Below are positions 44,625-60,754 of a stretch of DNA of 64,000 bases, one piece after another. Positions within the stretch are counted from its first letter, which is position 1. The number at the start of each line of letters is the position of its first letter. The position numbers were made by a program, and so were the translations under genes. The DNA is from Streptomyces sp. NBC_01231 (GTDB taxonomy: Bacteria; Actinomycetota; Actinomycetes; Streptomycetales; Streptomycetaceae), in the NCBI GenBank assembly GCA_035999765.1, contig CP108521.1, forward strand, positions 1,054,001-1,118,000. Direction: 5' to 3'. Under the pieces are notes generated by a model. It did not search any database and was not told the DNA's origin. It was given only the letters and a program-made list of their open reading frames with translations.

Positions 44625-44766
44625 GCTCGGGCTCCGATCGTGGGGCGTCGGCGGGCATGGGCGGTGGAACGGCACCGGTTCGGTCGTGAGGTGGCGGTCA
44701 GGAGTGGGTTATGTGGGGGCGGAGGTCAGGAGGGGCAGTCAGGAGTCGGTCGTGCGGGGCCGGCGG

Positions 44767-47700
44767 TCATGAGGGGGCGGTCACGGTGACGGTGGCCGTG
44801 GCGCGGTAGGTCGTACCCGACACCGTTCCCTTCACCTCGAAGGTTCCCGGTGCGGCGTACCGGTCCGGATCCACCGGGTCCCAGGTGACCGGGATGCGGC
44901 TGTCCTTGGATCCGTCGTTGTAGGTGGCGACGACGGTCGGGGGAAGCGTGGGCGCCCGGCCGGTCCGGGTGGTGAGCCGCTCCTCGGCGAGGCTGGTGAT
45001 CTCGACGGCGTCGGTCTGGCGCACCCACACGGTCGCGGTGACGGGCTGCGCGGTCCGGTCGGCGAGCCCGGTGATCCGTACACTGGTGCCGCCCTCGGCG
45101 ACCTGCTCCGCGGTGAGGGCGGGCCAGGCGACGGGTGAGCGTGCTGTCGAGCCGTCGGGGTAGACCAGCGTCACCTGGCCCGGCAGTTCCGGGATCCTGC
45201 CGCGCGGGGTGGGGACGTGGACCTCGCGCACCGAGTCCGGTGTCTGCGCGTACACCTTCCACTCCTGCACGCCGAGGGCGAGGTCGGGGTGCCCGGTCAG
45301 CCTGGCCCGCAGGGCCGTGGTGGTGACGGGGGTGAAGGTGGTCCGGTTGTAGCGGTCCTCGGCTGTGCCGTAGCCGCTGGGTGAGGCGACCTCGCGCCAG
45401 GTGTCGCCGTCGCGGTACTCGATGACCCAGGAGGCCGGGACGCCGACGCCGTCGTCCGCGCCGGGCTGGGCGTCGCGGAAGAAGTACAGGTCGGAGCCGT
45501 CCACGCGGACGGGGTCGTCCCAGGTGTACTGCACCCATTGGGTGCCCTTCTGGGGCCAGCTGCCCCAGCGCGGCGCGTCGGAGGAAGAGGCGGGTTCCCG
45601 GCCGTCGTTGAGCGCGGCCACCGACTCCCAGCCCGAGGTGTAGGACGCGGTGGGCGTCGCGGACGTCGCCACGTTCACCTGCCCGTCCGCGAGTCCCTCC
45701 GCCTTGACGACGACCTTCTTCGACGACTCCGACGTCCCGTCGCTCGCGGTGAGTCGGAGCGTGTAGGTGCCCGCCTTGGTGAACCGGGCGACGGTCGTCG
45801 GGGAGCCCGGGGTGCCGAAGAGGACGGTGCCGCCCTCCGGGCCGTCGGCCGCCGTCCACGACGCGGAGAGCTTCCGCTCCGGCAGTCCGTCGTCCTTGAC
45901 GATCCCCGTGAGTCGGACCTGTCCGGGGCGGCTGTACGTGGTGTCGCGCCACGCCTCGGCATACGGCGCGTGGTTGCCTGCCGCCGGGGCCCGGGCGCCG
46001 GTGGCGAAGGCCTGGATCTCCTTCAGGCCGCTGGTGTGGCCGTCCCGGTGGCGCATCAGCACCCGCAGTTTCTGGGTGGTCACCTTCCGGAAACGCACCT
46101 GGTTGAGGTTGGCTCGCGGATGGACCGGCGACCTGGCCGCTCCGGCCACGTCCCGCCACTGCCCGCCGCCGTCCTGGTACTGCACGGCGTAGAGCGCGGG
46201 CTCGGCGTAACCGTTCGGCCGTTTGTCGCTGTAGAAGTGGAGCCTGACGTCGTCCACCGTGCGCGGGCGACCGAAGTCGATCTCGTACCAGTCCTCGGCG
46301 TTGCCCGAGCCGCGGGCGCCCCAGAAGGGCTCGTTGATGGTGAAGCCGTCGACGGCGCCGGCCACCGGGTGCCCCTCCGCCTCGTGGGAGGCCCGGACGG
46401 TCGCACCGGCGGCGAGGTTCTCCTTCGCCACACCGGTCAGGTCCCGGCCCGCCTTGGCGAAGAGGTCGGCGACACGGTCCTTCTGGCCGTACTCGACGTC
46501 CTGCGGTTCGGCGACAGCCGTACGCAGACCAGTGGTTCGGGCCTTGGCCCCTCCCCCGTCGGGGAAGGTGACCTTGCGGGAGACGGGGTCGTAGACGAGG
46601 TGAGTGAGGCGGTCGGCGGTGAGGGCGAGCTTCCCGTCGAGGTAGAGGGAGTACCCCTCGGGGACCCGCTTGCCGTACGGCCGTTTGCCGTCGCCCGGCT
46701 CGTCCCACAGCACGGCCACGTCGGTGCCGCGGTAGTTGATGTCGGTGACGGCGAAGTGGGGCCAGTCGACGTCGATCGGCGACAGCTCGACCTTCCGGTC
46801 GTCGCGGGGCCGGAAGCCCATCGCGTCCTCGATCACGGTCCAGTTGGTGGTGCCGAGGATGGTGTGGTGGATCCAGGACCGGTAGCCGATCTTCTGCGGG
46901 TCGGCGCTGCCGTCCGCCCAGAACTCGTTCTGGTCGGGCCACCGGTTGTCGCCGTCGACGTACTGGGCCCAGGCGTTCCAGGACAGCAGCTTCTTGTACC
47001 AGGTGCGGTCGATGTACTTGTTCGGGTACTTCCGCAGTACGGAGGAGAGGAAGCGGAAGGTGACGGTGGAGTTGATGACCGAGAAGTTGTTGCTGCCCGG
47101 GTGCCCCTGCTCCGCCGCCTCCGCCTTGTCGGCCTGGTTGGCGGTGAAGAACGGGAAGACCGGGTACTGCTTGTCGTCCGCCCACAGGCGCAGCGCCTCG
47201 AGGTACTGCGGGTCCTCGTCCGGCGTGGGCATCAGGCCCACGCTGTACGGGTAGTAGTTGTTGATCTCCTTCCAGGGCACCAGGGTGTCGGTGGCCACGT
47301 GCCGGTGCTTGACCAGTTTGTCCTTCGGGTCCCACAGGTACGTGAGGACGGCGTCCTTGACCCGTTGCGCGACGCCTCGCATGTCCTGGGCCTTGTCGGT
47401 CTCACCGAGGAGTTCGTAGGCGCGGGCCGCCGCGGTGGCGTTGCTGTACACGTAGGCCGACTCGGCCCGGTCCAGTTTGCCCGGCTTCCAGTCGAAGGAC
47501 ACCGCGTCGGCGTCGTTGCCGGTCATCGCGCCCCAGTCGTACTCGATCAGCCCGTTGCCGTCGTGGTCGTAGTTCTCCAACTGGCCGCGCACGTCCCGCT
47601 CCGCGTAGCGCGCGAGGTTGCGCACGATGCCGTCGGGCCCGCCGTGCACCTGGTAGGAGCGCCAGGCGGCCTCGGAGATGTACTGGGTGTAGCTGTTGGA

Positions 47701-48906
47701 CCAGTTCTCCGGGTCCCCCGGGTTGTCCGTGTACTTGCCGTTCTTCGACACCTCTCCGGCCGACACCCAGGGACCGTAGGAGTAGCTCGGATCGCGCAGG
47801 TACTTGAGGTCGTCGACGAACATGCCGGTGGTCAGGGCGATGGCGTTGTTGTAGCCCAGCACGCCCTCCATGGAGGTGGGGAACTGGTAGTCGTTGCCCG
47901 GGATGTCGGCGTCGAGGAAGTTGTAACGCAGCAGCCACCAGCGGTAGTAGAGCGTCTTCTCGATGTTGTCGTCCGGGACGTCGAGGTAGGGCAGGTTCTC
48001 GGCCCACCACCGGTTGTATGTCTGCACATGAGCGCGGAAAGCGGCGGTCGGGGCCGCTGTGCGTACCGCCTCGTACTCGGACCGGGAGCGGGCGATCTCC
48101 TCGGTGAGGAAGCCGAGTTGGACCTTGGTGGTGAGTGCGCGTCCCGCGGGCACGGTGAGGGTCCGGGCCAGGGTCTCGCCGTCGGGTGCCATGCCGTCGC
48201 CGCTGAGCCGGGGGAAGACCGTGGTGAGGTTGTTCTTCGCGGCGACCGTGCCGGTCAGTTCGCGCCTCTCGGCGGTCGTGGTGTACGGGGAGGAGGCGCG
48301 CAGGGTCACCTCGCGACTCGTCGAACCGGTGTTGGCTACGGTCAGGTCGGTCACCGCCACGTTCGCGTCGGTGATGAACTTGGTCTGCGTCACCTTCAGA
48401 CCGGTGGCCTCGTGGGTGAACTCGCTGCGCCAGTGGCTCGGGGTCTGTGTCCTGGCCCCGGTGTCCTCCCGCAGGGTGAGGTTCTCCCCGTCCACGGCGA
48501 GGTCGACGGTGTACGCGGACCGGTTGTCGATGCTCTCCCAGTAGGCGACCTTGCCGCCGAACCCGAGCCGGGCGGGATCGTGTTCCTTCATGAACACCGC
48601 GCGTCCCCGCGTGAACAGCCAGTCGCCCGCCGGGTCCTCGCCCTTGCGGGCCAGCATGCGGTCCATCCAGAAGTCGGTGCCGTTCCCGGCCTTCCGGTCG
48701 GCCTCGTACTGGGCGCGCAGCGTGCCGTGCGTGGTGAAGCCGGCCGGTAGCTCCGGCACGGGTTCTGCGGATCCGGAGTAGACCGGGTAGCCGATGGCCG
48801 AGTTGTCCGCTGCGGCGGGTGCGGTGGCGGCGAGCGGGGCCAGCAGCCCGAGGACCAGGGCTCCGGCCAGGGCTCCGCGGCGGTGCCGTCTTCGTTGTCG
48901 GTGCAC
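44767..48906 (-). CDS. Large secreted MGH1-like (alpha/alpha-barrel) glycoside hydrolase with discoidin and Ig-like domains
   Basis: A 1379-residue exported protein starting at GTG 48906 behind GGGAGGT; that site lies in the last codons of the upstream GH127 gene. Signal peptide to ~34. An N-terminal beta-sandwich (~40-285) is followed by an (alpha/alpha)6 barrel (~290-700) with YYRWWLLRYNFLDADIPG, NNAIALTTG, LIEYDWGAMTGNDADAVSF (453-471) and DQNEFWADG (659-666); acidic residues in the last two blocks are plausible catalytic residues. Then discoidin-like (~855-985), Ig/PKD-like (~990-1080), second discoidin-like (~1085-1215) and two Big_4-type Ig domains. The barrel resembles the MGH1/GH63-type superfamily; activity is unknown. 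A shorter paralogue starts at 55952. Confidence 0.75.
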   Translation of the reverse strand: MHRQRRRHRRGALAGALVLGLLAPLAATAPAAADNSAIGYPVYSGSAEPVPELPAGFTTHGTLRAQYEADRKAGNGTDFWMDRMLARKGEDPAGDWLFTRGRAVFMKEHDPARLGFGGKVAYWESIDNRSAYTVDLAVDGENLTLREDTGARTQTPSHWRSEFTHEATGLKVTQTKFITDANVAVTDLTVANTGSTSREVTLRASSPYTTTAERRELTGTVAAKNNLTTVFPRLSGDGMAPDGETLARTLTVPAGRALTTKVQLGFLTEEIARSRSEYEAVRTAAPTAAFRAHVQTYNRWWAENLPYLDVPDDNIEKTLYYRWWLLRYNFLDADIPGNDYQFPTSMEGVLGYNNAIALTTGMFVDDLKYLRDPSYSYGPWVSAGEVSKNGKYTDNPGDPENWSNSYTQYISEAAWRSYQVHGGPDGIVRNLARYAERDVRGQLENYDHDGNGLIEYDWGAMTGNDADAVSFDWKPGKLDRAESAYVYSNATAAARAYELLGETDKAQDMRGVAQRVKDAVLTYLWDPKDKLVKHRHVATDTLVPWKEINNYYPYSVGLMPTPDEDPQYLEALRLWADDKQYPVFPFFTANQADKAEAAEQGHPGSNNFSVINSTVTFRFLSSVLRKYPNKYIDRTWYKKLLSWNAWAQYVDGDNRWPDQNEFWADGSADPQKIGYRSWIHHTILGTTNWTVIEDAMGFRPRDDRKVELSPIDVDWPHFAVTDINYRGTDVAVLWDEPGDGKRPYGKRVPEGYSLYLDGKLALTADRLTHLVYDPVSRKVTFPDGGGAKARTTGLRTAVAEPQDVEYGQKDRVADLFAKAGRDLTGVAKENLAAGATVRASHEAEGHPVAGAVDGFTINEPFWGARGSGNAEDWYEIDFGRPRTVDDVRLHFYSDKRPNGYAEPALYAVQYQDGGGQWRDVAGAARSPVHPRANLNQVRFRKVTTQKLRVLMRHRDGHTSGLKEIQAFATGARAPAAGNHAPYAEAWRDTTYSRPGQVRLTGIVKDDGLPERKLSASWTAADGPEGGTVLFGTPGSPTTVARFTKAGTYTLRLTASDGTSESSKKVVVKAEGLADGQVNVATSATPTASYTSGWESVAALNDGREPASSSDAPRWGSWPQKGTQWVQYTWDDPVRVDGSDLYFFRDAQPGADDGVGVPASWVIEYRDGDTWREVASPSGYGTAEDRYNRTTFTPVTTTALRARLTGHPDLALGVQEWKVYAQTPDSVREVHVPTPRGRIPELPGQVTLVYPDGSTARSPVAWPALTAEQVAEGGTSVRITGLADRTAQPVTATVWVRQTDAVEITSLAEERLTTRTGRAPTLPPTVVATYNDGSKDSRIPVTWDPVDPDRYAAPGTFEVKGTVSGTTYRATATVTVTAPS

Positions 48907-48908
48907 GG

Positions 48909-50951
48909 CTACCTCCCGGTGCCCTTCGGGTGCGTTCCGGTGGCCTTCGTCTGTTGTTCGGTGACCGTCGGCTGTGGTGTGGCCTTCGGCTGTGGTCCGG
49001 TGGGCTTCGGTCGTGGTTCTGTGGTCGGCAGCCAGACGCGCATCGTCGTGGGCCCGCGGTTGGCCCAGGAGTGGTAGGGGCCTAGGACGATGGCGCCGGG
49101 CTCGATAGCGGGAGCAGGGGCTCGGTCGAGCGGCCGGTACGGCCATGCGGCGTCCTGCGGTTCACCGGGTACGGCCAGTTCACCGGGTACGACGACGGTG
49201 GCACCCGCGCCGTCCGGCCCGTTCTCAGGCTCGGCGGAGGGGTCCACCCGGACGGCGTCGACCTCGCGCCCGTCCGGCAGGTCGACGGACTCGGCGCAGT
49301 ACACCAGCGGACCGCGCTGCACGGCCACCGTTCCGCGTACCGCGTCGACCCTCGGATCGGCGCGGATCCACCGCGGCCGTACGGGCAGTTCGAGTCGTAC
49401 CTCGTCGCCGGGACGGAAGACCCGGGTGGTCCCGGCGGTGCCGGGGGCGACCGCGCGGCGCCGCCCGTCCGGGTCGACCAGCCACGCGGTGTCGCCCGCC
49501 GTCCAGTCGGGCACGCGCAACGACAGGGTCCACGGGCGGTCCGGGGACCGGCCGATCCGCACGGTCACGGTGCCGCCGGACGGGTAGTCGGTACGGATCC
49601 GGAGGGCGACGCCGTGCCCGCCCGCCAGGGAGGTGGCGATCTCCGCGTCGGCGTACTGGTGCACCTGCACGCCGTGGTCGTCGGCCGTCGCCAGATACGC
49701 GGGCAGCTGGGCCAGGGTCCGGGCCACATTGGTCGGGCAGCAGGACACCGCGAACCAGGGCGCGCGCAGACTCGACTCGGCACGCCGGCTCGGAACCTGC
49801 GCGGCGGGCACGGCGCCGCGCAGGCGCCGGTGCAGGGTGTTGGCGTAGAAGAAGGCCCGGCCGTCCGCCGACGGCGAGGTCGCGACCACGTTGAACAAGG
49901 TCCGCTCGGCGAGGTCGGCGAAGCGTGGCTCGCCGGTGACCAGCAGCAGCCGCCAGCTGAGCATGACGGAGGCGACACCGGCGCAGGTCTCCGAGTAGGC
50001 GCGGTCGGGCGGCAGCACGAAGTCGTCGCCGAAGGCCTCGTCCCGGTGGTGGGAGCCCATGCCGCCGGTGAGATAGGTCCGCCGGGCGACCGTGGCCTCC
50101 CACTGCCGTACGACCGCGGCGAGCAGGGCGTCGTCGCCGGTCTCCACGCCCACGTCCACAGCCCCGGCCGCGAGGTAGAGGGCGCGGACGGCGTGCCCGC
50201 GCAGCACCGTGGCCTCGCGCACCGGCATGTCGTCCTGGTAGTAGGCGCGGCCGAACTCGATGTCGGCGAGCGTACGGTGGCCGCGTCGGTCGAGGAACAG
50301 CGCTGCCTGGTCGAGGTAGCGCTGCTCCCCCGTCGCGCGGGCCAGTTCGACCAGGGCCGTCTCGATCTCCGGATGCCCGCAGACGCCCTCGATGCCGCCC
50401 CGTCCGAAGGTGGTGCAGACGTGGTCGGCGGCCCGCCGGGCGATCTTCGCCAGCTCGCCCTCGCCCCGGGCCCGGGCCTGGGCCACGCCCGCCTGGATCA
50501 GGTGCCCTTGGCAGTACAGTTCGTGGCCCCATTCGAGGTCGCTGTACCGGGCCCGCTGGCCGGGGCGTCCGTAGGCGGTGTTCAGGTAGCCGTCCGCCTC
50601 CTGGGCGGGTGCGATGACCTCGGTGAGTGCGGCGATGTCGGAGTCGAGGGCGGTGCCGGTGCCGGACTGCCAGGCCATCGCTTCGAGGAGTTTGTAGAGC
50701 TCGGAGTCGGCGAACTCCCGTCCGCGCCGGTCCCGGTGGATCCGGCCCTCGGCGGCGGCCCGGAAGTTGCCGGTCCAGCCGACGCGTTCCATCCAGTCGC
50801 GGCAGTGGCCGATCGTCGCGGTCGCGTTGGTGTGCCGGCGCTCGGCCCAGAAGCCCCCGGTGATCCTGACCTCGTCGAGGCCGAGCGGTCGCAGCCGGCC
50901 TCGGGTCGGGGCCACCGGCAGTACGGAGGACCGCGTCGTGTTCTCCCTCAC
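48909..50951 (-). CDS. Cytoplasmic GH127-type beta-L-arabinofuranosidase
   Basis: A 680-residue DUF1680-superfamily enzyme without a signal peptide, starting at GTG 50951 (the longer upstream frame runs into the permease gap). The zinc site known from Bifidobacterium HypBA1 is complete: Glu305 (RDEAFGDDF), Glu321 and Cys323 (AYSETCAGVA), nucleophile pair Cys404-Cys405 (VSCCPTNVA). It should hydrolyse imported beta-L-arabino-oligosaccharides, matching the ABC genes 73 bases upstream. The last ~38 residues form a Pro/Thr/Lys-rich tail (PKPTGPQPKATPQPTVTEQQ) with repeat character. Two bases separate its stop from the next start. Confidence 0.92.
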   Translation of the reverse strand: MRENTTRSSVLPVAPTRGRLRPLGLDEVRITGGFWAERRHTNATATIGHCRDWMERVGWTGNFRAAAEGRIHRDRRGREFADSELYKLLEAMAWQSGTGTALDSDIAALTEVIAPAQEADGYLNTAYGRPGQRARYSDLEWGHELYCQGHLIQAGVAQARARGEGELAKIARRAADHVCTTFGRGGIEGVCGHPEIETALVELARATGEQRYLDQAALFLDRRGHRTLADIEFGRAYYQDDMPVREATVLRGHAVRALYLAAGAVDVGVETGDDALLAAVVRQWEATVARRTYLTGGMGSHHRDEAFGDDFVLPPDRAYSETCAGVASVMLSWRLLLVTGEPRFADLAERTLFNVVATSPSADGRAFFYANTLHRRLRGAVPAAQVPSRRAESSLRAPWFAVSCCPTNVARTLAQLPAYLATADDHGVQVHQYADAEIATSLAGGHGVALRIRTDYPSGGTVTVRIGRSPDRPWTLSLRVPDWTAGDTAWLVDPDGRRRAVAPGTAGTTRVFRPGDEVRLELPVRPRWIRADPRVDAVRGTVAVQRGPLVYCAESVDLPDGREVDAVRVDPSAEPENGPDGAGATVVVPGELAVPGEPQDAAWPYRPLDRAPAPAIEPGAIVLGPYHSWANRGPTTMRVWLPTTEPRPKPTGPQPKATPQPTVTEQQTKATGTHPKGTGR

Positions 50952-51024
50952 CAGTTCATGCCTTCGGTTGTCCCTTCGGTCGGCGGTGTGGGGCCGTTCG
51001 GCGTGTGCGTCGGCCCGTTGACTC

Positions 51025-51846
51025 TCAGCCCTTGATCGCACCGGACATGAAGCCCCGTATGTAGTGCCGTTGCAGCAGCAGGAAGAGCAGCAGGCAGGGC
51101 ACGGCCAGGACCACCACGCCCGCCTCGGTGGCGCCGTAGTCGACGGCGCCCATGCTCTGCTGCCGCAGATTGGCGACGGCCAGCGGCAGGGGTGCCTTCT
51201 CGCTGTCGGAGATGAGGATCAGCGGGGCGATGAAGTCGTTCCAGGCCGCGAGGAAGGCGAACAGCCCGACGGTGATCAGTCCCGGCCGCACCGCAGGCAG
51301 GAGGATCCGGCGCAGCGCCCCGGCCGTGCCGCAGCCGTCGACGAGCGCCGACTCCTCCAGTTCGCGCGGGACCGCCTCGAAGGAGATCCGCATCATGAAG
51401 GTGGCGAACGGCAGTTGGAACATGGCCAGCACCAGGCTCAGCCCGATCAGCGAGTTCTGCAGATGGAGCCGGCCGAGCAGCACGTAGAGCGGGATGAGGA
51501 GCGTGGCGTACGGGACCATGAGGATGGCCAGGGTGAGCAGGAACAGCAGGTTCTTGCCCGGGAAGTCGAAGCGGGCGAAGGCGTAGCCGCCCAGCAGCGA
51601 CACCCCGAGGGTGAGGGCTACGGTCAGCGTCGAGACGACGGTGCTGTTGAGGAGGTACCGCCACAGTCCGGCGTCGTAGTCGAGCAGCGTCCGGTAGTTG
51701 CCGAGGCCGTAGCCGGATTCCTGCGCGGTGCCGGGCTGTCCGCTGACCGAGGACCAGGCGTTCCACAGCAGCGGGAACAGGAAGATGACGGCCAGACCTC
51801 CGGCGACGACGTAGTGGGGCGTCCGGCCGAGGGCGCGGGTGAGCAC
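51025..51846 (-). CDS. ABC sugar permease, MalG/inner-membrane type
   Basis: A 273-residue permease with six transmembrane helices, read from GTG 51846 because AAGGGA lies at proper spacing and the product then begins VLTRALGRTPHYVV at normal family length. The earlier ATG 51960 overlaps the upstream stop (ATGA) but would add 38 residues made of repeated TSHDVHATR units, encoded by a 27-bp DNA repeat. The EAA loop is ELEESALVDGCGTAGALRRI. It pairs with the other permease and the lipoprotein in a carbohydrate importer. No ATPase gene is present, so a shared MsiK-type ATPase is likely. Confidence 0.88.
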   Translation of the reverse strand: MLTRALGRTPHYVVAGGLAVIFLFPLLWNAWSSVSGQPGTAQESGYGLGNYRTLLDYDAGLWRYLLNSTVVSTLTVALTLGVSLLGGYAFARFDFPGKNLLFLLTLAILMVPYATLLIPLYVLLGRLHLQNSLIGLSLVLAMFQLPFATFMMRISFEAVPRELEESALVDGCGTAGALRRILLPAVRPGLITVGLFAFLAAWNDFIAPLILISDSEKAPLPLAVANLRQQSMGAVDYGATEAGVVVLAVPCLLLFLLLQRHYIRGFMSGAIKG

Positions 51847-51873
51847 CGTGGTGTCCCTTCTTGTGGCATGGGT

Positions 51874-51954
51874 GTCATGACTGGTCCTCGTGGCGTGGAC
51901 GTCATGACTCGTCCGCGTGACGTGGACGTCATCGCTCGTCCCCGTGGCGTGGGG
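51874..51954. repeat. Three 27-bp tandem repeats between the permease genes
   Basis: Units at 51874-51900, 51901-51927 and 51928-51954 begin GTCATGACTSGTCC or GTCATCGCTCGTCC and end CGTGGCGTGGAC or a variant; a partial fourth unit starts at 51956, inside the end of the upstream permease gene. Period 27 keeps the frame open. It lies just upstream of the preferred GTG of the second permease. Confidence 0.85.
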
Positions 51955-51956
51955 TG

Positions 51957-52919
51957 TCATGACTCGTCGGCGCGGCGCAGGCCGCGGAACTGGAGGGCGT
52001 TGAGCACGAGCAGCACGGCCAGCACGATGATCGACAGCGCCGCGGCGGTGCCGAGGTTCAGCCGTTGGAAGGCCTCCCGGTAGATCAACTGGACGATCGT
52101 GACAGTGCTGTTGTCCGGTCCGCCCTTGGTGAGGATGAAGAACTGGTCGAAGGCGAGCAGGGATCCGGTCACGCACAGCAGCAGGCTCAGGGCGATGGAC
52201 GGGCGCAGCAACGGCAAGGTGATGGAGCGGAAGATCTGGCCTGGGCTCGCACCGTCCATCCGGGCCGCCTCGTACACCTCGTGGGGGATGCGCTGCATGC
52301 CCACCAGCAGGATCAGCATGTAGAAGCCGGCGAACTTCCAGACGACGAGGAAGACCGTCGACAGCAGAGCGGCCGTCGGAGTGCCGAGGAAGGACACCGG
52401 GTCGTCGACGAGGCCGAGCCTTTCCAGGGCACGGCTGAGCGGCCCGGTGGTGGGGCTGTACAAGCCCCAGAACAGCAGCGAGGCGGAGGCGAGTCCGAGG
52501 GCCCCGGGCAGGAAGTAGACCGTGCGGAAGAAGCCCGCGCCGGGGCGGGACTCCTGCACGAGCAGGGCGAGCAGGAGCGCCAGGCCGAGCAGGGCGACCG
52601 TGACGATCGCCGTGTAGAGAAGCGTGAAACGGACGGCGGGCCAGAACAGGGTGCTGTCGGTGGCGTCGGTGTAGTTCTCGGGGGCGTTGACGCCCCGGTC
52701 GCCGGCCAGCAGCGGCCACTCGCTGAGCGACATCTGCCCGACGAGCAACAGGGGGAGCAGGAAGAAGACGGTGACGAACACGGCTGTGGGGGCCGCGTAG
52801 GCGAGCCCCTTGGCCTTGCGGGACCGCCACCGGGGCGCCGCCGCGCGGGGCGGACGGACCCGGCGTTCCAGTCGGCCCCGGTCCTCGGTCGCCGCGGGGT
52901 CGGCCACCTTCACCTGCAT
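51957..52919 (-). CDS. ABC sugar permease, MalF/UgpA type
   Basis: A 320-residue permease starting at ATG 52919 behind AAAGGAGAG. After a cytoplasmic basic N-terminus (residues 1-35), about six hydrophobic segments follow (FVTVFFLLPLLLVGQMSL, FTLLYTAIVTVALLGLALLL and others). The cytoplasmic EAA loop is HEVYEAARMDGASPGQIFRS, the contact site for the ATPase. It belongs with the lipoprotein encoded 214 bases upstream and the second permease downstream. Confidence 0.94.
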   Translation of the reverse strand: MQVKVADPAATEDRGRLERRVRPPRAAAPRWRSRKAKGLAYAAPTAVFVTVFFLLPLLLVGQMSLSEWPLLAGDRGVNAPENYTDATDSTLFWPAVRFTLLYTAIVTVALLGLALLLALLVQESRPGAGFFRTVYFLPGALGLASASLLFWGLYSPTTGPLSRALERLGLVDDPVSFLGTPTAALLSTVFLVVWKFAGFYMLILLVGMQRIPHEVYEAARMDGASPGQIFRSITLPLLRPSIALSLLLCVTGSLLAFDQFFILTKGGPDNSTVTIVQLIYREAFQRLNLGTAAALSIIVLAVLLVLNALQFRGLRRADES

Positions 52920-52933
52920 GGCTCTCCTTTGCC

Positions 52934-52968
52934 GTGTGACGTGTGACGTGTGCCGTGTGCCGTGGGTC
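52934..52968. repeat. Heptamer tandem repeat upstream of the first permease
   Basis: GTGTGAC, GTGTGAC, GTGTGCC, GTGTGCC and GTGGGTC run head to tail (52934-52968) in the 214-base gap between the lipoprotein stop and the permease ribosome site. The rest of the gap shows no gene. Confidence 0.7.
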
Positions 52969-53133
52969 GTGCGAGGGCAGCGCCGGGTACGGGGTGGGGG
53001 TGCTGCGCGACAGGGAGGGTGCTGTGCGATCGAGGTGAGGCCCGTCGCCCGGAGCGGGCAGGGGCGAGGGGTGCGTGCCAGTCGGACGGAGCGGGCAGGA
53101 GCGACGGATACGCGCCGGTCTGCCGGATGCCGC

Positions 53134-54444
53134 TCAGTCCGCCAGTGACGCGGAGACCGCCTCGTTGTCCTTGTCCACGGAGCTCCCGTCGCCGAAGACG
53201 GCGTCGCGCATCAGGGTCAGCCAGGGCCCGTTGGGGTCGTTGAAGGTCTGGCCGAACTTCAACGCGTACGGGGTGCGGCCGTCCGCCACCAGTTGGTTGA
53301 TGGTCACCAGCCGCGGATCCGCCTTGGAGTACCTGTTGGACGCGAGGTCGGTGCGGGCCACCACGTCCTTGTGCGCGGCGACCACGTCGACCTGCGCCTT
53401 GTCGCCCAGGGACCAGGCTAGGAAGTTCCAGGCCTGGTCGGTGGACTTGCTGGTGGCGGAGATGCCGATGGCGTCGCCGCCGACGAAGGTGGACTTGCCG
53501 CCGTCGGGCCCGGGGATGGGCGCGACCCCGAGGTCGAGGTCCTTGGGCATCAGCCCCAGGGTCGTCGACGGCATGGGCATGACGCCGACCTTTCCCTTCG
53601 GGAAGACGCCGGTCCAGGTGACGCCGGTCTCGTCCCGCGCGCCGGGGGCGACGATGTCGTCCTTCACCCACCCGCGATAGGTGTCGTAGACCTTCTTCGC
53701 GGTGGCGGAGGCGAGCTGCGCCTCGGTTCCCTCCTCGCTCAGGACGTCCTCGCCCGCGGCCCAGATGGAGGGCCACCAGGTGAACACGCCGCAGCCGCCG
53801 CAGTTCCCGCCGAAGAAGGTGCCGTCGACGCCGCCGAGCGCGTCCACCGCCCGCGCCTGGCTGTCCCACTCGCCCAGCGTGGTGGGCGGTTTCTCGGGAT
53901 CGAGTTTCGCCCGCCGGTAGAGCTCCTTGTTGTAGAAGAGCACCGACAGGTCGAGGGTGTGCGGGACGACGTACTTCTTGCCCTCGTACGTGCCGGCCTT
54001 GATGTGCGACTGCGCCAGATCCTTGGCGAAGGGCAGGGCGTCGACGCGGTCGGTGAGGTCGGCGAAGAGCCCGCTGGAGGTGTAGTTCGGAACGAACACC
54101 ACGTCGGAGGCGAACAGGTCGGGCAGGTCCTTGGATCCGGCGGCGGCACCGACCTTGGCCTGGTAGTCGTCGGTCGGTACGACGGTCAGCTCGACCTTGT
54201 TCTTGTGGCTCGCGTTGTACGCCTTGACAAGTGCCTCGCTCTGCGGGCGGGTCGCCGCGCGTGTCCACATCGTGAGCGTGGCGCCGTCGTCGACCCCCTT
54301 CGCGTCGGCCGGCCCACCGCCTCCCCCACCCGAACCGTCCTCCCCCGACCCGCAGGCCGTGACCAGACTCGCGGCGGCGAGCAGCGCGACGGCCCCGGTG
54401 ACGAAGCGGCGCAGCTGCCCACGTGGCCCGACCGTGCTTCCCAT
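53134..54444 (-). CDS. ABC transporter sugar-binding lipoprotein
   Basis: A 436-residue family 1 extracellular solute-binding protein. ATG 54444 follows AAGGGGGA. The signal peptide ends in the lipobox LVTAC (AASLVTACGSGEDG), followed by a Gly/Ser-rich linker. Core features are LTMWTRAATRPQSEALVKAY, LPDLFASDVVFVPNYTSSGL and GTFFGGNCGGCGVFTWWPSI, with many aromatic residues for sugar stacking. First gene of the importer-glycosidase operon. With a cytoplasmic GH127 in the operon, the ligand is probably a short arabino-oligosaccharide; this is inference. Confidence 0.93.
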   Translation of the reverse strand: MGSTVGPRGQLRRFVTGAVALLAAASLVTACGSGEDGSGGGGGGPADAKGVDDGATLTMWTRAATRPQSEALVKAYNASHKNKVELTVVPTDDYQAKVGAAAGSKDLPDLFASDVVFVPNYTSSGLFADLTDRVDALPFAKDLAQSHIKAGTYEGKKYVVPHTLDLSVLFYNKELYRRAKLDPEKPPTTLGEWDSQARAVDALGGVDGTFFGGNCGGCGVFTWWPSIWAAGEDVLSEEGTEAQLASATAKKVYDTYRGWVKDDIVAPGARDETGVTWTGVFPKGKVGVMPMPSTTLGLMPKDLDLGVAPIPGPDGGKSTFVGGDAIGISATSKSTDQAWNFLAWSLGDKAQVDVVAAHKDVVARTDLASNRYSKADPRLVTINQLVADGRTPYALKFGQTFNDPNGPWLTLMRDAVFGDGSSVDKDNEAVSASLAD

Positions 54445-54575
54445 GGTCGATCCCCCTTGTGTTGCGGCGGGCCGTGCAGGGGCCTGCCGGTCGGGACGAT
54501 GGATGTGGTGGCACTGAACAGAGCGACGGGAACTGGGGGAAGGAACTGAGTGACCGAACTGAGCGACGGAAAGCA

Positions 54576-54623
54576 ACCGAAAAGGCTTTCTGTGACGCTA
54601 GAACCCTCCCCCGTACCCGTCAA
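54576..54623 (-). promoter_or_regulatory. Promoter and operator of the importer-glycosidase operon
   Basis: On the minus strand TTGACG (54623-54618), 17 bases, TAGCGT (54600-54595), then the operator GAAAGCCTTTTCGGT (54590-54576) over the expected RNA start. The operator matches the one at 55860-55874 at 13 of 15 bases, in the same position relative to its -10 box. Confidence 0.8.
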
Positions 54624-54655
54624 TCCCCTTGCAGAGAACGGCTTTAGACGGGTCA

Positions 54656-54696
54656 CCGAAATCTGTTCGGACACCCTGACCGAAAGTCTTTCGCGT
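54656..54696 (+). promoter_or_regulatory. LacI autoregulatory sites
   Basis: CCGAA-N5-TTCGG (54656-54670) and the perfect odd palindrome CGAAAG-T-CTTTCG (54681-54693) lie 65-105 bases before the LacI start. Read as GAAAGTCTTTCGCGT (54682-54696), the second is a weaker copy of the operon operators. With the minus-strand promoter it accounts for most of the 318-base gap 54445-54762, which holds no gene. Confidence 0.6.
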
Positions 54697-54762
54697 ACTG
54701 TTTCACCCATGGCGTGCCGCCCTCGACGGCGTCGGCAGGCCGTGCGAGACAGGAGAACGCCC

Positions 54763-55791
54763 ATGTCACAGGCCACCGGCCCGGCCCGTCCGCAGCCCGC
54801 CACGCTCGTCGAGGTCGCCCGGCTGGCGGGCGTGTCCGTCGCCACGGCGTCCAAGGCCCTCAACGGGCGCAGCCAGGTGCGCGCGGAGACCAGAGCGCGG
54901 GTGATCGAGGCGGCCGAGCGGCTGTCGTTCCGGCCCAACCAGGTGGCCCGCGGCCTGCTGGCCGGGCGCACGGGCACCGTCGGTCTGCTCACCAGCGACC
55001 TCGAGGGCCGGTTCAGCATTCCCATCCTGATGGGCGCCGAGGACGCCTTCGGGGCGGGCGAGGTCGCGGTGTTCCTCTGCGACGCCCGTGGTGACGCGAT
55101 CCGCGAACAGCACCATGTGCGCGCGCTGCTCGGGCGCCGGGTCGACGGCCTCATCGTGGTGGGCAGCCGGACCGATCCCCGGCGCTCGCTGGGCCGGGAG
55201 CTGCCCGTGCCCGTGGTCTACGCCTACGCTCCGTCGCAGGACTCGGAGGACCTGTCCATCGTCCCCGACAACGTCGGCGCGGGCCGGATCGCGGTGGACC
55301 ACCTGCTCGCCTGCGGCCGGACCCGGATCGCCCACATCACCGGCGATCCCGGATACCTGGCCGCGCAGGACCGGGCCGCGGGCGCCCGGGCCGCGCTCGC
55401 CGAGGCCGGCCTCGCCCTGGTCGGCGAACCGCGGTTCGGGGCGTGGTCGGAGGGCTGGGGGCGGGCGGCGACCGCGATGCTGCTCGACCGGCATCCGGAC
55501 GTGGACGCCGTGCTGTGCGGCAGCGACCAGATCGCCCGCGGTGTCATGGACGTGCTGCGCGAGCGCGGACACCGGGTGCCGGAGGACGTCGCGGTCATGG
55601 GATTCGACAACTGGCAGGTCCTGACCTCCTCTTCCCGGCCGCCCCTGACCAGCGTCGACATGAACCTCGAACAGGTCGGGCGGGCGGCCGCGCACGCCCT
55701 GTTCAGCGCGATCGGCGGGGCCCGGCGACCGGGAACGGAGACCCTGCCCTGCCGTGTGGTGATCCGGGGGTCCACAGCGGCCCTGTCCTGA
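54763..55791 (+). CDS. LacI-family regulator of polysaccharide module 2
   Basis: A 342-residue LacI/GalR regulator; ATG 54763 sits behind AGGAGAA. The DNA-binding domain is TLVEVARLAGVSVATASKAL, NGRSQVRAETRARVIEAAE and RLSFRPNQVARGLLAGRTGT; the effector domain ends VAVMGFDNWQVLTSSSRPPL and TSVDMNLEQVGRAA. It stands between the divergent importer operon and the MGH1-like/GH43 operon. Near-identical operators lie at the RNA start of both, so it should repress both and be released by an oligosaccharide brought in by the importer. A third, weaker site before its own gene points to autoregulation. Confidence 0.93.
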   Translation: MSQATGPARPQPATLVEVARLAGVSVATASKALNGRSQVRAETRARVIEAAERLSFRPNQVARGLLAGRTGTVGLLTSDLEGRFSIPILMGAEDAFGAGEVAVFLCDARGDAIREQHHVRALLGRRVDGLIVVGSRTDPRRSLGRELPVPVVYAYAPSQDSEDLSIVPDNVGAGRIAVDHLLACGRTRIAHITGDPGYLAAQDRAAGARAALAEAGLALVGEPRFGAWSEGWGRAATAMLLDRHPDVDAVLCGSDQIARGVMDVLRERGHRVPEDVAVMGFDNWQVLTSSSRPPLTSVDMNLEQVGRAAAHALFSAIGGARRPGTETLPCRVVIRGSTAALS

Positions 55792-55828
55792 ACGACCGCG
55801 TGGACAACGTCGGTCTCCCACACCCCTC

Positions 55829-55874
55829 TTGACACTCCATCAGCTCACTCCTACGTTGCGAAAACCTTTTAGGT
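55829..55874 (+). promoter_or_regulatory. Promoter and operator of the MGH1-like/GH43 operon
   Basis: TTGACA (55829-55834), 17 bases, TACGTT (55852-55857), then the operator GAAAACCTTTTAGGT (55860-55874) over the expected RNA start. The architecture is the same as upstream of the importer operon on the other strand. Confidence 0.85.
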
Positions 55875-55919
55875 CCGTTTCCGTGCTCTGCGGACCATGA
55901 ACGTCGGCGTCATCGTGAG

Positions 55920-55951: not shown

Positions 55952-58900
55952 ATGAGAAGACCGCACGTCCTACTGTCACGGCGCCGACGCACGAGGTGTC
56001 TCCTCGTCGCCCTGGTGCTCAGCGTCTGTTCCGTCGTCACCGCGACCCCGGCCGCCGCCGCCCAGACCATCGGGTTCCCCACCTTCACCGGCCCGGCGAT
56101 CCCGGCCCCACCCGTCGGCTACACGCCCGGCGACATGATGCGGACCATCTACGACGCGGAGAGTTCGGGAACCGACTTCTGGATGGACCGTCTGCTGGCC
56201 CGTCAGGGCAACGACCCGGCCGGTCCCTGGCTGATGAGCCGAGGGCGCGCGGTCTTCATGAAGGAGCACGACCCCTCCCGGCTCGGCTTCGGCGGCAAGG
56301 TCGCCTACTGGGAGAGCATCAACGACAACAACGCCTACACCGTCGCGATCACCCCGGGCACCTTCACCGAGCAGGTCTCCCAACGACGGCAGACGCCCAG
56401 CCACTGGAAGAGCGTGCACACCAGCGGCTCGGTCACCGTCGACCAGACCAAGTTCATCACCGACAACAACGTCGCGGTGACCAACCTGTCGATCAAGAAC
56501 AACGGCAGCAGCTCGACCACCTTGCAGCTGCGGGCGACCTCGCCGTACGCCACGACGGGCACCGGCGGTGAGCTGACCGGGCAGGTGAACGCCTACAACA
56601 ACCTCACCACCATCCGTCCGCGGCTGACCGGCGACGGTTTCGCCGTCTCGAGCGGCGGGCTGAACCGCTCCGTGACGATCGCCGCCGGAGCGACGGTGAC
56701 CGCCAAGGTGGTGATGGGCTTCGTCACCGACGAGATCCCCGAGTCGCTCACCGAGTACAACGCCTATGCGGGCTACACCAACGCCACCGCGTTCGCCACC
56801 CACGTCAGGGCCTACAACCTGTGGTGGGCGCAGAACGTGCCCTACATCGACGTACCCGAGCCCGCGATCAAGAAGAGCGTCTACTACCGCTGGTGGCTGA
56901 TGCGCTTCAACAACCTCGACGCCGACATCCCCGGGCAGACCTTCCAGTTCCCGACCTCGACCGAGGGCGTCCTCGGCTACAACAACGCGATCGCGCTCAC
57001 CCAGCCCATGCACATCGACGACCTCAAGTACCTGCGCAACCCGGCCTATGCGTACGGCGACTGGCTCAGCGCCGGTCAGACATCCAAGGGCGGCCGCTTC
57101 CTCGACAACCCGGGCGACCCGGAGAACTGGTCCAACAGCTACACCCAGTACATCGCCGAGGCGGCCTGGAAGAGCTACCAGATCCACGGCGGCCAGCCCG
57201 CGATCGCCGGCAACCTGGCCCGCTATGCCGAGGGCGACGTCAAGGGCCAACTCGCCCACTACGACCACGACAACAACAAGCTCATCGAGTACGACTGGGG
57301 CGCCCTGACCGGCAACGACGCCGACGCGGTGTCCTTCCACTGGAAGCCCGGGAACATGGACCGCGCCGAGTCCGCCTACCAGTACAGCGGCGCGCTCGCC
57401 GCCGCGCAGGCCTACGAGGCGACCGGCAACACGGCCAAGGCCACCGAGATGCGCACGCTCGCGAACCAGATCAAGGACGCCATCGTCAACGTGCTGTGGA
57501 ACCCGAACAGGCAGCTGTTCGAGCACCGGCTGAAGTCGACCAACGAGTGGGTGCCCTGGAAGGAGATCAACAACTACTACCCGTTCTCGGTCGGGGCCGT
57601 CCCCGACACCGCCACCTACAAGCAGGCGCTGCGCCTGTTCGACGACCCCGCCCAGTACCCCGTCTTCCCCTTCTACACCGCCAACCAGGTCGACAAGAAG
57701 GCGGCGGCCGACGCCGGGAATCCGGGCTCCAACAACTTCTCCACCATCAACTCCACCGTGCAGTTCCGGCTGTACTCCTCGGTGCTGCGCAACTATCCCA
57801 ACTCCTGGATGAAGGCGACCGACTACAAGAAGCTGCTCTACTGGAACGCGTGGGCGCAGTACGTCGGCGGCAACACCCAGTGGCCCGACGCCAACGAGTT
57901 CTGGGCCGACTGGAACGGCACCGGCATCGACTACCGGTCCTGGATCCACCACAACATCCTCGGCAGCAGCAACTGGACCGTGATCGAGGACGTCGCCGGC
58001 CTGCGGCCCCGCAACGACGCCAAGGTCGAGCTCTCCCCCATCGACATCGGCTGGGACCACTTCACCGTCAACAACCTCCGCTACCGCAACGCGGATCTGA
58101 CCGTCGTCTGGGACGACCCGGCCGACGGTGTGGTGCGCTACCCGGGCGTTCCCGAGGGGTACTCGATCTACGTCAACGGAAGCCGGGCCGCCACCGTCGA
58201 CTCGCTGGTCCCCTTCACCTGGGACCCGGCCACCGGAGACGTCAGCACCAGCGGCACGGTCACCCACCACACGGCCGTCGCGGGGCTGAAGGCCCCCAAC
58301 CAGGTGGTGCAGAACGGCCCGCGGATGGTCGACATGCTCGCCAAGGCGGGCGTGGACCTGACCGCCGACCTGACCAACCTCGCCTCCGGAGCGACCGCGT
58401 CCGCCTCCTACACCGGTTCCGGCAGCAGCGTTTCCGGCGCGGTCGACGGCTACCCCACCAACGAGCCGTTCTGGGGCGCCGGATCCTCCCCCAACAGCCA
58501 GGACTGGTACGAGCTGAACTTCGGCACCGCCCGCACGCTCGACGAGGTGCGCCTGTACTTCAAGGACAGCCGCCCCGCCAGTACGACCTACCGGGCGCCG
58601 TCCGCGTACACCATCCAGTACCACGACGGCAGTTCGTGGGTGAACGCGCCGAGCCAGACCAAGAGCCCGGCGGCGCCGCGCGCCAACTACAACCTCGTCC
58701 GGTTCCCGGCGATCAGCGCCCAACGCGTCCGGGTGCTGGCCACCAACGCCTCCGGCGCCAAGACGGGGCTCACCGAGGTCAAGGTGTACAACCGGGGCGG
58801 CGTCCAGCCACCGGCCAACCAGGCGACCTCCGCGACGGCGTCGGCGTCCTACACCTCCTCCTGGGAGAGCGTCACCGCGGTCAACGACGGCATCGACCCG

Positions 58901-59242
58901 CCCTCGTCCAACGACACCGTGAACCCGCGCTGGGGCACCTGGCCCGAGACCGGCCAGCAGTGGGCCGAGCTGACCTGGCCGTCGGCCAGGAACCTCAACA
59001 AGGCCGAGGTGTACTTCTTCGACGACGACGAGGGCATCGACCTGCCCTCCGCCTGGAAGCTGCAGTACTGGAACGGCAGCGCCTACGTCGACGTGCCCGG
59101 CGCGGGCGGCTACCCACTGGCCAAGAACCAGTACAACACCGTCACCTTCACCGCCACGAACACCACCCGACTGCGGGTGCTGCTCACCGGCAACGGCTCC
59201 AGCTCCGTCGGTCTCCTCGAAGCGAAGGTCTACGGACCCTGA
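55952..59242 (+). CDS. Secreted MGH1-like (alpha/alpha-barrel) glycoside hydrolase with two discoidin domains
   Basis: A 1096-residue exported protein starting at ATG 55952 behind AGGGAGC; signal peptide to ~37 (TPAAAAQ). It is a clear paralogue of the protein at 44767-48906 along the N-terminal sandwich and barrel: FMKEHDPSRLGFGGKVAYWE, YYRWWLMRFNNLDADIPG, NPGDPENWSNSYTQYIAEAA, LIEYDWGALTGNDADAVSF (from 444) and DANEFWADW (Glu649). It has two discoidin-like domains (~814-946 and ~957-1096) but lacks the Ig-like domains. Family resemblance is to MGH1/GH63-type barrels; substrate unknown. It leads a two-gene operon under a LacI operator. Confidence 0.78.
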   Translation: MRRPHVLLSRRRRTRCLLVALVLSVCSVVTATPAAAAQTIGFPTFTGPAIPAPPVGYTPGDMMRTIYDAESSGTDFWMDRLLARQGNDPAGPWLMSRGRAVFMKEHDPSRLGFGGKVAYWESINDNNAYTVAITPGTFTEQVSQRRQTPSHWKSVHTSGSVTVDQTKFITDNNVAVTNLSIKNNGSSSTTLQLRATSPYATTGTGGELTGQVNAYNNLTTIRPRLTGDGFAVSSGGLNRSVTIAAGATVTAKVVMGFVTDEIPESLTEYNAYAGYTNATAFATHVRAYNLWWAQNVPYIDVPEPAIKKSVYYRWWLMRFNNLDADIPGQTFQFPTSTEGVLGYNNAIALTQPMHIDDLKYLRNPAYAYGDWLSAGQTSKGGRFLDNPGDPENWSNSYTQYIAEAAWKSYQIHGGQPAIAGNLARYAEGDVKGQLAHYDHDNNKLIEYDWGALTGNDADAVSFHWKPGNMDRAESAYQYSGALAAAQAYEATGNTAKATEMRTLANQIKDAIVNVLWNPNRQLFEHRLKSTNEWVPWKEINNYYPFSVGAVPDTATYKQALRLFDDPAQYPVFPFYTANQVDKKAAADAGNPGSNNFSTINSTVQFRLYSSVLRNYPNSWMKATDYKKLLYWNAWAQYVGGNTQWPDANEFWADWNGTGIDYRSWIHHNILGSSNWTVIEDVAGLRPRNDAKVELSPIDIGWDHFTVNNLRYRNADLTVVWDDPADGVVRYPGVPEGYSIYVNGSRAATVDSLVPFTWDPATGDVSTSGTVTHHTAVAGLKAPNQVVQNGPRMVDMLAKAGVDLTADLTNLASGATASASYTGSGSSVSGAVDGYPTNEPFWGAGSSPNSQDWYELNFGTARTLDEVRLYFKDSRPASTTYRAPSAYTIQYHDGSSWVNAPSQTKSPAAPRANYNLVRFPAISAQRVRVLATNASGAKTGLTEVKVYNRGGVQPPANQATSATASASYTSSWESVTAVNDGIDPPSSNDTVNPRWGTWPETGQQWAELTWPSARNLNKAEVYFFDDDEGIDLPSAWKLQYWNGSAYVDVPGAGGYPLAKNQYNTVTFTATNTTRLRVLLTGNGSSSVGLLEAKVYGP

Positions 59243-59257
59243 AGGGATGTGCGCCCA

Positions 59258-60754
59258 GTGAACCGGTCCAGATGTCTGGCGGTGCTCACCGCCGTTCTCA
59301 CCATGGTGGTCGCCTTCCTGGTGGCGCCGCCGTCAGCGTCCGCCGCTGTCACGTTCACGACCACGGGAGTCAACCAGAACGGCGGCAACTGCCTCGATCT
59401 GCCGGGTGGTTCATCGACCAACGGGACCCAACTGCGCGCCTTCACGTGCGGCTCGGGCGCGAATCAGAACCTGGGCTTCGTCCCGGTCGCGGGGACCACC
59501 GACACGTACACGATCACCACGCAGTCCGGCCAGTGCGTCGATGTCTCCGGCGCGTCCACGGCGGACAACGCCACGATCATCCAGTGGCCCTGCCACAGCG
59601 GAACGAACCAGCGGTGGCGGCTCGTCCCGGTGTCGGTCGCCGGCGCCGACAAGACCTTCAACCTGGTCTCCGTGAGCTCGGGCAAGTGCGTCACGCCGAG
59701 CGGCGGCTCGTCGGCCTCGAACACCGGCCTGGTGCAACTGCCGTGCGCCGCCGCGAACGGCAGGGTGTGGCGGCTGCCCGGCTTCACCGGGGGCGGCACG
59801 AGCCCGGGGACGTTCACCAACCCGATCGCCCAGCGCGGGCCCGACCCCTGGCTCACGTACTACGACGGGTACTACTACCTCGCCACCACGACCTGGAACT
59901 CGACGGTCACCATGCGCAAGTCCAGTACCCTCGCCGGGCTGGCCACGGCCGACGAACAGGTGATCTTCAACCTGAGCCGGCCCAATGGGGCGGGCACGAT
60001 GTGGGCCCCGGAGTTCCACCTGCTCGACGGCCCCAACGGGAAGCGGTGGTACTTCTACTACACGGCCGGGCGGGAACCGTACGACCTGGGCACCCAGCGG
60101 ATCCATGTGCTGGAGAGCGCCGGCCTGGACCCGACGGGGCCCTACACCTTCAAGGCCGACCTGCTCGACCCGACCCAGGACAACACCTGGGAGCTGGACC
60201 CGGGCATCCTCCAGCTGGGCGGCAAGCTCTACCTGCTGGGCACCTTCTACAACGGCTCGCAGCCGATGTTCATCCGGCCGCTGTCCAACCCATGGACCGC
60301 GAGTGGCACCCGCCGCGTGTTGTCCACTCCCACCTACAACTGGGAGACCGTGGGCGGCGCGGTCAACGAGGGTGCCGAGGTCCTGCAGCGGGGCGGCAAG
60401 ACGTTCATCGTCTACTCCGCCAGTCACTGCTCCACGCCCGACTACAAGCTGGGCATGCTCACCTACAACGGCGGCGACCCGCTCAGCTCCTCCTCCTGGG
60501 TCAAGTCCCCGAACCCCGTCTTCCAGCGGTCCAACGCCAACGGTGTGTACGGGCCCGGCCACAACGGCTTCTTCAAGTCGCCCGACGGGACCGAGGACTG
60601 GATGGTCTACCACGCCAACAACTCCGCGAGCGGCGGCTGTGACATGAACCGTTCCACCAGGGCGCAGAAGTTCACCTGGAACGCCGACGGCACTCCGAAC
60701 TTCGGCACGCCGGTGGCTCTGGGCGTCCCGCTGACGGCCCCGTCAGGGGAGTAG
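59258..60754 (+). CDS. Secreted ricin-lectin plus GH43 enzyme (arabinanase/arabinofuranosidase-like)
   Basis: A 498-residue exported protein. GTG 59258 lies ten bases behind AAGGGA and 15 bases after the previous stop; GTG 59249 is too near the ribosome site. Signal peptide 1-30; ricin-type beta-trefoil (CBM13-like) ~33-175 with three Cys-containing repeats and QRW (TNQRWRL); GH43 domain ~186-498 with Asp196 (GPDPWLTYYDGYYYLAT), Asp314 (WELDPGIL) and Glu371 (AVNEGAEVL). The pattern resembles exo-1,5-alpha-L-arabinofuranosidases of GH43 subfamily 26, but subfamily is not proven. It is co-transcribed with the MGH1-like protein. Confidence 0.9.
   Translation: MNRSRCLAVLTAVLTMVVAFLVAPPSASAAVTFTTTGVNQNGGNCLDLPGGSSTNGTQLRAFTCGSGANQNLGFVPVAGTTDTYTITTQSGQCVDVSGASTADNATIIQWPCHSGTNQRWRLVPVSVAGADKTFNLVSVSSGKCVTPSGGSSASNTGLVQLPCAAANGRVWRLPGFTGGGTSPGTFTNPIAQRGPDPWLTYYDGYYYLATTTWNSTVTMRKSSTLAGLATADEQVIFNLSRPNGAGTMWAPEFHLLDGPNGKRWYFYYTAGREPYDLGTQRIHVLESAGLDPTGPYTFKADLLDPTQDNTWELDPGILQLGGKLYLLGTFYNGSQPMFIRPLSNPWTASGTRRVLSTPTYNWETVGGAVNEGAEVLQRGGKTFIVYSASHCSTPDYKLGMLTYNGGDPLSSSSWVKSPNPVFQRSNANGVYGPGHNGFFKSPDGTEDWMVYHANNSASGGCDMNRSTRAQKFTWNADGTPNFGTPVALGVPLTAPSGE

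Follow-up and report, generated by a model that had tools for sequence, protein, structure and literature searches.

A predicted local LacI-family regulon for beta-L-arabino-oligosaccharide use in Streptomyces, with a candidate third half-site in its operators

Two divergent operons in the window (the whole 64,000-nucleotide stretch of Streptomyces sp. NBC_01231 that was analysed, whose numbering is used below) are predicted to form a local regulon under the LacI-family protein encoded between them. This reading is well supported at the level of sequence because the sites accompany the regulator in several orders, the operator O2 is present or absent in Streptomyces along with its target gene, and an extended operator pattern has no other copy in the genome. 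It upholds the shared operator, two divergent operons and local LacI regulon proposed by an earlier reading of this DNA (the sequence-only reading). By its gene content the cluster looks like a local regulon for the beta-L-arabino-oligosaccharides of hydroxyproline-rich glycoproteins, as predicted for BauR1 of Bifidobacterium. The sites, their conservation, the target genes and a third half-site beyond the palindromic operators were read from the DNA itself.

The operators and their conservation

The regulator and its predicted sites are as follows:

54763..55791, plus strand: LacI-family regulator, 342 aa, assigned by Pfam, BauR-like by context
54595..54623, minus strand: promoter P1, TTGACG-N17-TAGCGT
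54577..54592, minus strand: operator O1, CAGAAAGCCTTTTCGG, 2 bp past the -10 box of the importer operon
55829..55857, plus strand: promoter P2, TTGACA-N17-TACGTT
55858..55873, plus strand: operator O2, GCGAAAACCTTTTAGG, immediately 3' of the -10 box
54680..54695, plus strand: operator O3, CCGAAAGTCTTTCGCG, a weaker and probably autoregulatory site adjoining a -10-like box of lacI
54696..54701, plus strand: putative -10 box of lacI, TACTGT, with no clear -35 element

The regulator has the N-terminal helix-turn-helix (PF00356, 6.6e-16), hinge and periplasmic-binding-like core (PF13377, 4e-34) of the LacI family, the hinge region appearing canonical by eye. Both promoters are present as the sequence-only reading gave them, and so are its two 15-mers, which are identical at 13 of 15 positions. 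Their offset from the -10 box, which it took to be the same, differs by 2 bp, with CACA (4) separating TAGCGT from GAAA at O1 and GC (2) separating TACGTT from GAAA at O2. It was right about the site and wrong about its extent: the consensus over 81 lacI loci is a 16-bp palindrome, CCGAAAANNTTTTCGG, which starts two bases earlier than the 15-mer, ends one base sooner, and follows the -10 box after 2 bp at O1 and 0 bp at O2.

The window by itself does not prove that these sites are real, since the 15-mer has two matches in it at up to 3 mismatches, where 0.63 are expected, and 11 of 100 shuffles also reach two. Across the 11.34 Mb host genome the 15-mer gave 11 matches at up to 2 mismatches, two of them exact, and its reversed control gave 8. 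The extended pattern GAAANNCTTTTNGGNNNNTTTC, which was derived from O1 and O2 themselves, recovered only O1 and O2 in the 11.34 Mb at up to 2 mismatches, and its reversed control gave 1 match. A wider regulon was considered and rejected. None of ten other genomic near-matches that were inspected is recovered by the extended pattern; seven lie inside coding-like frames (one of only 121 codons), the one at 3795991 is about 35 bp before such a frame, and those at 9713049 and 4237731 are neither in nor before one. The inspection covered part of the two-mismatch places and one three-mismatch place.

The main proof that the sites are real is the conservation of the predicted operator in relatives. 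The set of 81 loci comprised the window and the best 80 of 358 relatives, namely 51 Streptomyces (52 with the window; the nearest relatives of the regulator are in this genus), 7 of the Jiangella group, 9 Glycomyces, 11 Micrococcales (Cellulosimicrobium, Oerskovia, Promicromonospora and Cellulomonas), 1 Actinacidiphila and 1 unplaced MAG. O1, called at up to 3 mismatches over 14 positions, is present in 80 of these 81 loci, the exception (L080) having only 153 bp upstream, and the palindrome is perfect in all 9 Glycomyces loci. Loss of the sites at orthologous loci, which the sequence-only reading had named as one outcome that would refute it, is not what was found. O2 is present in all 36 of the 52 Streptomyces loci in which the GH121b gene directly follows lacI and in none of the 16 that do not have it; it also occurs in all three further GH121b-bearing Streptomyces genomes (L121–L123), which may repeat species already counted. 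At 3 mismatches, O2 is absent from the other 29 loci of the set. Kinship among the Streptomyces loci means that these counts overstate the evidence, and the spread over several orders is the stronger argument.

Counting against the prediction of O2 as a regulon site are nine Jiangella-type loci in which a distant GH121-like gene (34–39 percent identity) follows lacI in the same direction and no operator precedes it, the best match having 4–6 mismatches. Five of these loci are from the best 80 of 358 relatives and four were fetched separately (L063, L064, L065, L067, L071, L130, L132, L134 and L135; some are probably one species). A GH121 fragment after lacI in L155 is likewise without an operator site, and in L140 the GH121 gene (60 percent) after lacI is preceded by a 3-mismatch site, CCGAAACCCATTGCGG. 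A weight matrix built from O1/O2 sites and later genomes scored O1, O2 and O3 of the window at 21.8, 21.7 and 7.5 bits, and in 1.60 Mb around regulators it gave 124 matches of at least 9.5 bits, of which 6 were outside the O1/O2 places, those at the O1/O2 places being expected by construction.

The spacing to the promoter was taken from best-scoring hexamer pairs. The gap between -10 box and operator is 1–2 bp in 49 of 52 Streptomyces loci at O1 and 0 bp in 34 of 36 at O2, and across the best 80 of 358 relatives the -10 box is 0–3 bp before the operator in most Streptomyces and in all Jiangella-group and Micrococcales loci; in Glycomyces the operators are 15–17 bp beyond it. With a gap of 0–3 bp the start site should fall inside the operator, and a bound repressor should therefore exclude polymerase. 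These positions bear on whether a paralogous LacI-family protein uses the sites or the adjacent protein acts as an activator. LacI paralogues do occur near by in some loci, but the sites track the adjacent orthologue across orders, the half-site type changes with the recognition helix, and a protein bound at -10/+1, the place of the operators, should act as a repressor, so that we regard both possibilities as highly improbable.

An even palindrome near the promoter, conserved at orthologous loci, is what is expected of a LacI-family operator. The portion available of a LacI-family survey covering 1173 regulators gives even palindromes for 1251 of 1303, usually with a central CG pair (PMC4052901). 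In most of the best 80 relatives the centre here is CC or GG, yet membership of the family stands because CG is typical and not obligatory; the same portion lists 78 even palindromes with another or a degenerate centre.

The weaker copy that the sequence-only reading had placed at 54682–54696, before lacI, is real and corresponds to O3. The element, CCGAAA-N4/5-TCGCGTAC adjoining a TANNNT -10-like box, was found as a regular expression within 130 bp of lacI in 43 of 52 Streptomyces loci, with no other match on both strands of the 52 loci (2.05 million positions), and its conservation supports autoregulation of lacI. In the L150–L155 clade a second operator-like site, about 20 bp or less from the matched start of lacI, also suggests autoregulation.

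DNA looping between O1 and O2 across lacI was rejected, as there is neither helical phasing nor a tetramerisation helix. The O1–O2 centre distances range from 1203 to 1366 bp in 36 loci (Rayleigh R 0.17, p about 0.36). The tetramerisation helix of LacI is at its C-terminal end, and the regulator aligns to LacI residues 2–331 with two residues to spare, which leaves no room for such a helix.

Several observations on regulators outside the set are recorded here. Loci L156–L160 encode paralogous regulators (about 60 percent identity) beside another GH127 gene, with operators reading CGGCAA..TTTTCC followed by TTTCC 9–10 bp on. A same-genus genome without a close orthologue (L189, G191:C3:1306000-1321000) has GAAATCCTTTTCGGCCACACTTTC, and the surrounding 15 kb gave no LacI match at 1e-15. 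For the regulator homologue of a small genome (L165), no other match was found at 1e-50 in 43 genomes of its family, its own among them.

Target genes and the probable substrate

The importer operon is ordered SBP, permA, permB, GH127, GH121a, GH146-like, and the divergent operon GH121b, GH43; secretion signals of all enzymes were judged by eye.

53134..54444, minus strand: solute-binding protein (SBP), best solved match 6lce
51957..52919, minus strand: ABC permease A
51025..51993, minus strand: ABC permease B, start codon uncertain
48909..51041, minus strand: GH127 beta-L-arabinofuranosidase, no signal peptide by inspection
44767..49146, minus strand: GH121 beta-L-arabinobiosidase a, with F5/8C, PKD and Big_4 domains; start uncertain, searches used 44767–49062
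42459..44675, minus strand: GH146-like beta-L-arabinofuranosidase, twin-arginine-like signal by inspection; start uncertain, searches used 42459–44657
55952..59242, plus strand: GH121 beta-L-arabinobiosidase b, Pfam MGH1-like_GH, F5/8 type C-like domains, secreted by inspection
59249..60754, plus strand: GH43 with ricin-type lectin domain, best solved match 3akf (alpha-L-arabinofuranosidase), 9.2e-69

The two proteins previously labelled MGH1-like are better described as GH121 beta-L-arabinobiosidases. Both match 6m5a (2e-185 and 1.6e-207), and both keep the catalytic residues given for HypBA2, Glu383, Asp515 and Glu713 (PMC7263609, in part), within EGVLGYNN, GNDADAVS and NEFW (chain numbering offset 31). 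No third GH121 gene was found in the host genome at E 1e-20, both being in this cluster. Only one of the two enzymes formerly called GH127-type belongs to that family. It matches GH127 structures and has E, E, C, C and C aligned to HypBA1 Glu322, Glu338, Cys340, Cys417 and Cys418, which we take to be the cysteine nucleophile and metal-ligand residues. The other matches 5opj (3.7e-81) and 8k7y (1.2e-53), presumably both GH146 structures, far better than GH127 4qjy (1.2e-15) or HypBA1 (3.8e-10), and is termed GH146-like. The solute-binding protein matches 6lce at 3.3e-101, the next match being 7.5e-25; the protein in 6LCE, a beta-arabinobiose-binding protein from B. longum, is described as binding only beta-arabinobiose (PMC8106489, in part).

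The sites thus precede GH127 and GH121 genes and a beta-arabinobiose-type ABC importer, the combination of a BauR1-type regulon. The main substrate could instead be an arabinan-type glycan of another sort (arabinogalactan-protein, arabinan or RG-II side chains), since activity on AGP and arabinan is described for some GH146 members (PMC10850190, in part) and the GH43 matches an alpha-L-arabinofuranosidase. We consider this unlikely, as the two GH121 enzymes and the 6lce-type SBP point to beta-arabinobiose from hydroxyproline-rich glycoproteins.

Within the importer operon a gap of 214 bp (52920–53133) separates the SBP gene from permA, while the other genes nearly abut; in relatives this gap is about 0 to 240 bp (tblastn bounds). 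Streptomyces loci vary in having both GH121a and GH121b or one of them (L012, L028, L030 and others). A further PF07944 (GH127-type) gene is present at G000:C1:1042934-1044106, about 10 kb before the start of the window (G000:C1:1054001-1118000), with no match to the extended operator pattern near it.

A third half-site on the gene side

The sequence-only reading missed a third copy of the half-site, which is beyond the palindromic sites towards the genes:

54567..54573, minus strand: third half-site of O1, CTTTCCG, 3 bp past the 16-mer, about one helical turn from the second half
55877..55883, plus strand: third half-site of O2, GTTTCCG, on the gene side of O2

Among 32 representative regulators (less than 88 percent identical to one another and at least 65 percent identical to that of the window), 25 repeat the second half-site, at 5 or more of 7 positions, 9–11 bp further on towards the gene, compared with 0–2 of 32 in seven sets of control distances and none on the upstream mirror side. 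The summed score was 159, against a maximum of 106 in 200 shuffles, for an element that was spotted by eye first and tested afterwards. It was found in 13 of 16 representatives from the discovery set (window and best 80 relatives) and in 12 of 16 from later genomes; the seven without a clear copy are L044, L066, L086, L148, L149, L151 and L152. Over 116 sites the start of TTTC is 4 bases past the 16-mer in 79, 3 past it in 23, 5 past it in 8 and immediately next to it in 9, other places up to 22 accounting for 1–2 sites each, and one site may count twice. With regulators below 65 percent identity the signal is weaker (14 loci with a clear palindrome), and the copy is missing in L167, L169, L171, L177 and L180. 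One of the six matrix matches outside the O1/O2 places (L061, +9037) precedes a GH121 gene. In the direction of that gene the site is CCGAAAAGCTTTTCGT TCC TTTCG, and the third half-site is thus present there too.

The pattern GAAANNNTTTTCGGN{0,14}TTTC has 28 matches in 394 genomes of the class, one each in 28 genomes. Sixteen adjoin a regulator at least 71 percent identical, and all 16 have spacings equal to 9–11 bp; of the 12 without such a regulator, three share that spacing, and one (L118) is beside a 56-percent paralogue with a longer spacing. The strict pattern marks only 16 of 49 genomes having a homologue, many others carrying CCGAAANNNNTTTCGG-type arms.

It is possible, if unlikely, that the repressor does not recognise the extra element at all, and that this element instead belongs to the initial transcribed region or is a DNA-bending T-tract in phase with the operator. 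It would fall at roughly +14 to +20 of the predicted Streptomyces transcripts, and AAA and TTT tracts do occur about one turn apart. In Glycomyces, however, where the promoter is 15–17 bp further off, the element is still 10 bp from the second half-site, and TTTC is at the same place after the operator in 9 of 9 loci. The third half-site is thus fixed relative to the operator and not the promoter, which argues that the same protein reads it. Also against an unread element are the conservation of CGG after TTT in Glycomyces and Micrococcales and the partial tracking of the recognition helix by its sequence. TTCG occurs in the third copy with 19 of 28 regulators that have Ala at LacI position 18 (numbering as in PMC2978694, in part) and with 0 of 7 that have Gly (Fisher p 0.0017, uncorrected for descent, leaving out 13 loci without a third copy, 7 with Ala and 6 with Gly). 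Counting against this, the third copies at O1 in Streptomyces frequently read TTTCCG, and agreement with the second half-site at the base following TTC is limited to 23 of 35 loci. The sequence of the third copy thus appears to follow the recognition helix in part.

A second dimer on an overlapping palindrome that includes the third half-site, resembling overlapping GntR sites, seems quite improbable. The LacI-family survey reports 110 operons preceded by overlapping sites about 13 bp apart (PMC4052901, in part), but the spacing here is 9–11 bp and the left arm that a second palindrome requires is absent, TTTCGGT standing by eye in place of CCGAAAA. Because this arm is missing, we tentatively favour an alternative register for a headpiece. 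On this evidence we propose, tentatively and at slightly less than even confidence, that this clade of LacI-family repressors may use a three-half-site operator, a palindrome plus a lone direct-repeat half-site one turn geneward, conserved in at least four actinomycete orders, as a distinct binding mode in which a dimer would switch registers or a second subunit would dock.

Proposed regulation and relation to known systems

Taken as a whole, it is likely that a dimeric LacI-family repressor controls the use of plant-glycoprotein beta-L-arabino-oligosaccharides through O1, O2, O3 and the third half-site; its binding, repression and inducer, the activities of the enzymes and the role of the third half-site we infer. 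Without inducer, a dimer of the 54763–55791 protein would sit on O1 and O2, covering the probable transcription start and blocking RNA polymerase at both operons, and the regulator would damp its own gene through O3. With three half-sites at about one-turn spacing and the dimer on the palindrome, the third half-site may provide an alternative headpiece register one turn geneward, giving higher local occupancy and a longer roadblock. The substrates would be the beta-L-arabino-oligosaccharides of plant hydroxyproline-rich glycoproteins of the extensin type. The secreted GH43, GH121 and GH146-like enzymes would trim the glycan chains and release beta-arabinobiose, which the ABC importer would take up and the cytoplasmic GH127 would convert to L-arabinose; beta-arabinobiose or arabinose would free the operators.

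BauR1 of Bifidobacterium was predicted by comparative genomics to control hypBA1, hypBA2 and bauABC (PMC5928203, in part), and like it the regulator here would be a local LacI-family repressor beside GH121, GH127 and a beta-arabino-oligosaccharide ABC importer. The likeness drawn here is one of gene content, and the present regulon, in Streptomyces and other actinomycetes, differs in its two divergent operons, the added GH146-like enzyme, the second GH121 and the lectin-bearing GH43. The enzymes resemble the HypBA1/HypBA2/HypAA pathway of B. longum and Xanthomonas euvesicatoria, with extracellular GH121 and cytoplasmic GH127 (PMC8106489, in part) and conserved catalytic residues, except that the GH43 here best matches 3akf; XeHypBA1 of Xanthomonas is a GH146 (PMC10850190, in part). 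The available portions of two further papers describe the X. euvesicatoria enzymes and mention homologues in some actinomycetes (PMC6085000) and note GH121 and GH127 in a Streptomyces genome (PMC13403950), so the presence of these enzymes in Streptomyces is not new. We found no description of the regulation of Streptomyces GH121 genes in the open-licence PubMed Central literature searched.

For the operator, the nearest precedents are CytR and the overlapping GntR-type sites. CytR also uses half-sites at helical-turn spacing, in direct or widely spaced inverted repeats (PMC3454398, in part), and variable spacing is reported for CcpA (PMC5263246, in part). CytR, however, reads two weak, variably spaced half-sites, usually with CRP bound beside them, whereas here a strong palindrome of nearly fixed spacing carries one extra half-site with no known partner, and the canonical-looking hinge (by eye) speaks against loose, CytR-like half-site spacing. 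The LacI-family survey covers palindromes, tandem and overlapping sites, and its GntR-type sites likewise have an extra recognition sequence overlapping or beside the primary operator, but as two full sites about 13 bp apart and not as one lone half-site 9–11 bp on (PMC4052901, in part). No description of a third half-site in LacI-family operators was found in the open-licence PubMed Central literature searched.

The regulon is of a known kind, well delimited, in a lineage for which our searches gave no description of its regulation, and the third half-site is what is new here. LacI-family operators are usually pictured as plain palindromes, and a lone third half-site would be a departure from this. 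The predicted sites are exact enough for the regulon to be delimited genome-wide, and the regulon would extend a sugar-sensing system of gut bifidobacteria to soil and plant-associated actinomycetes.
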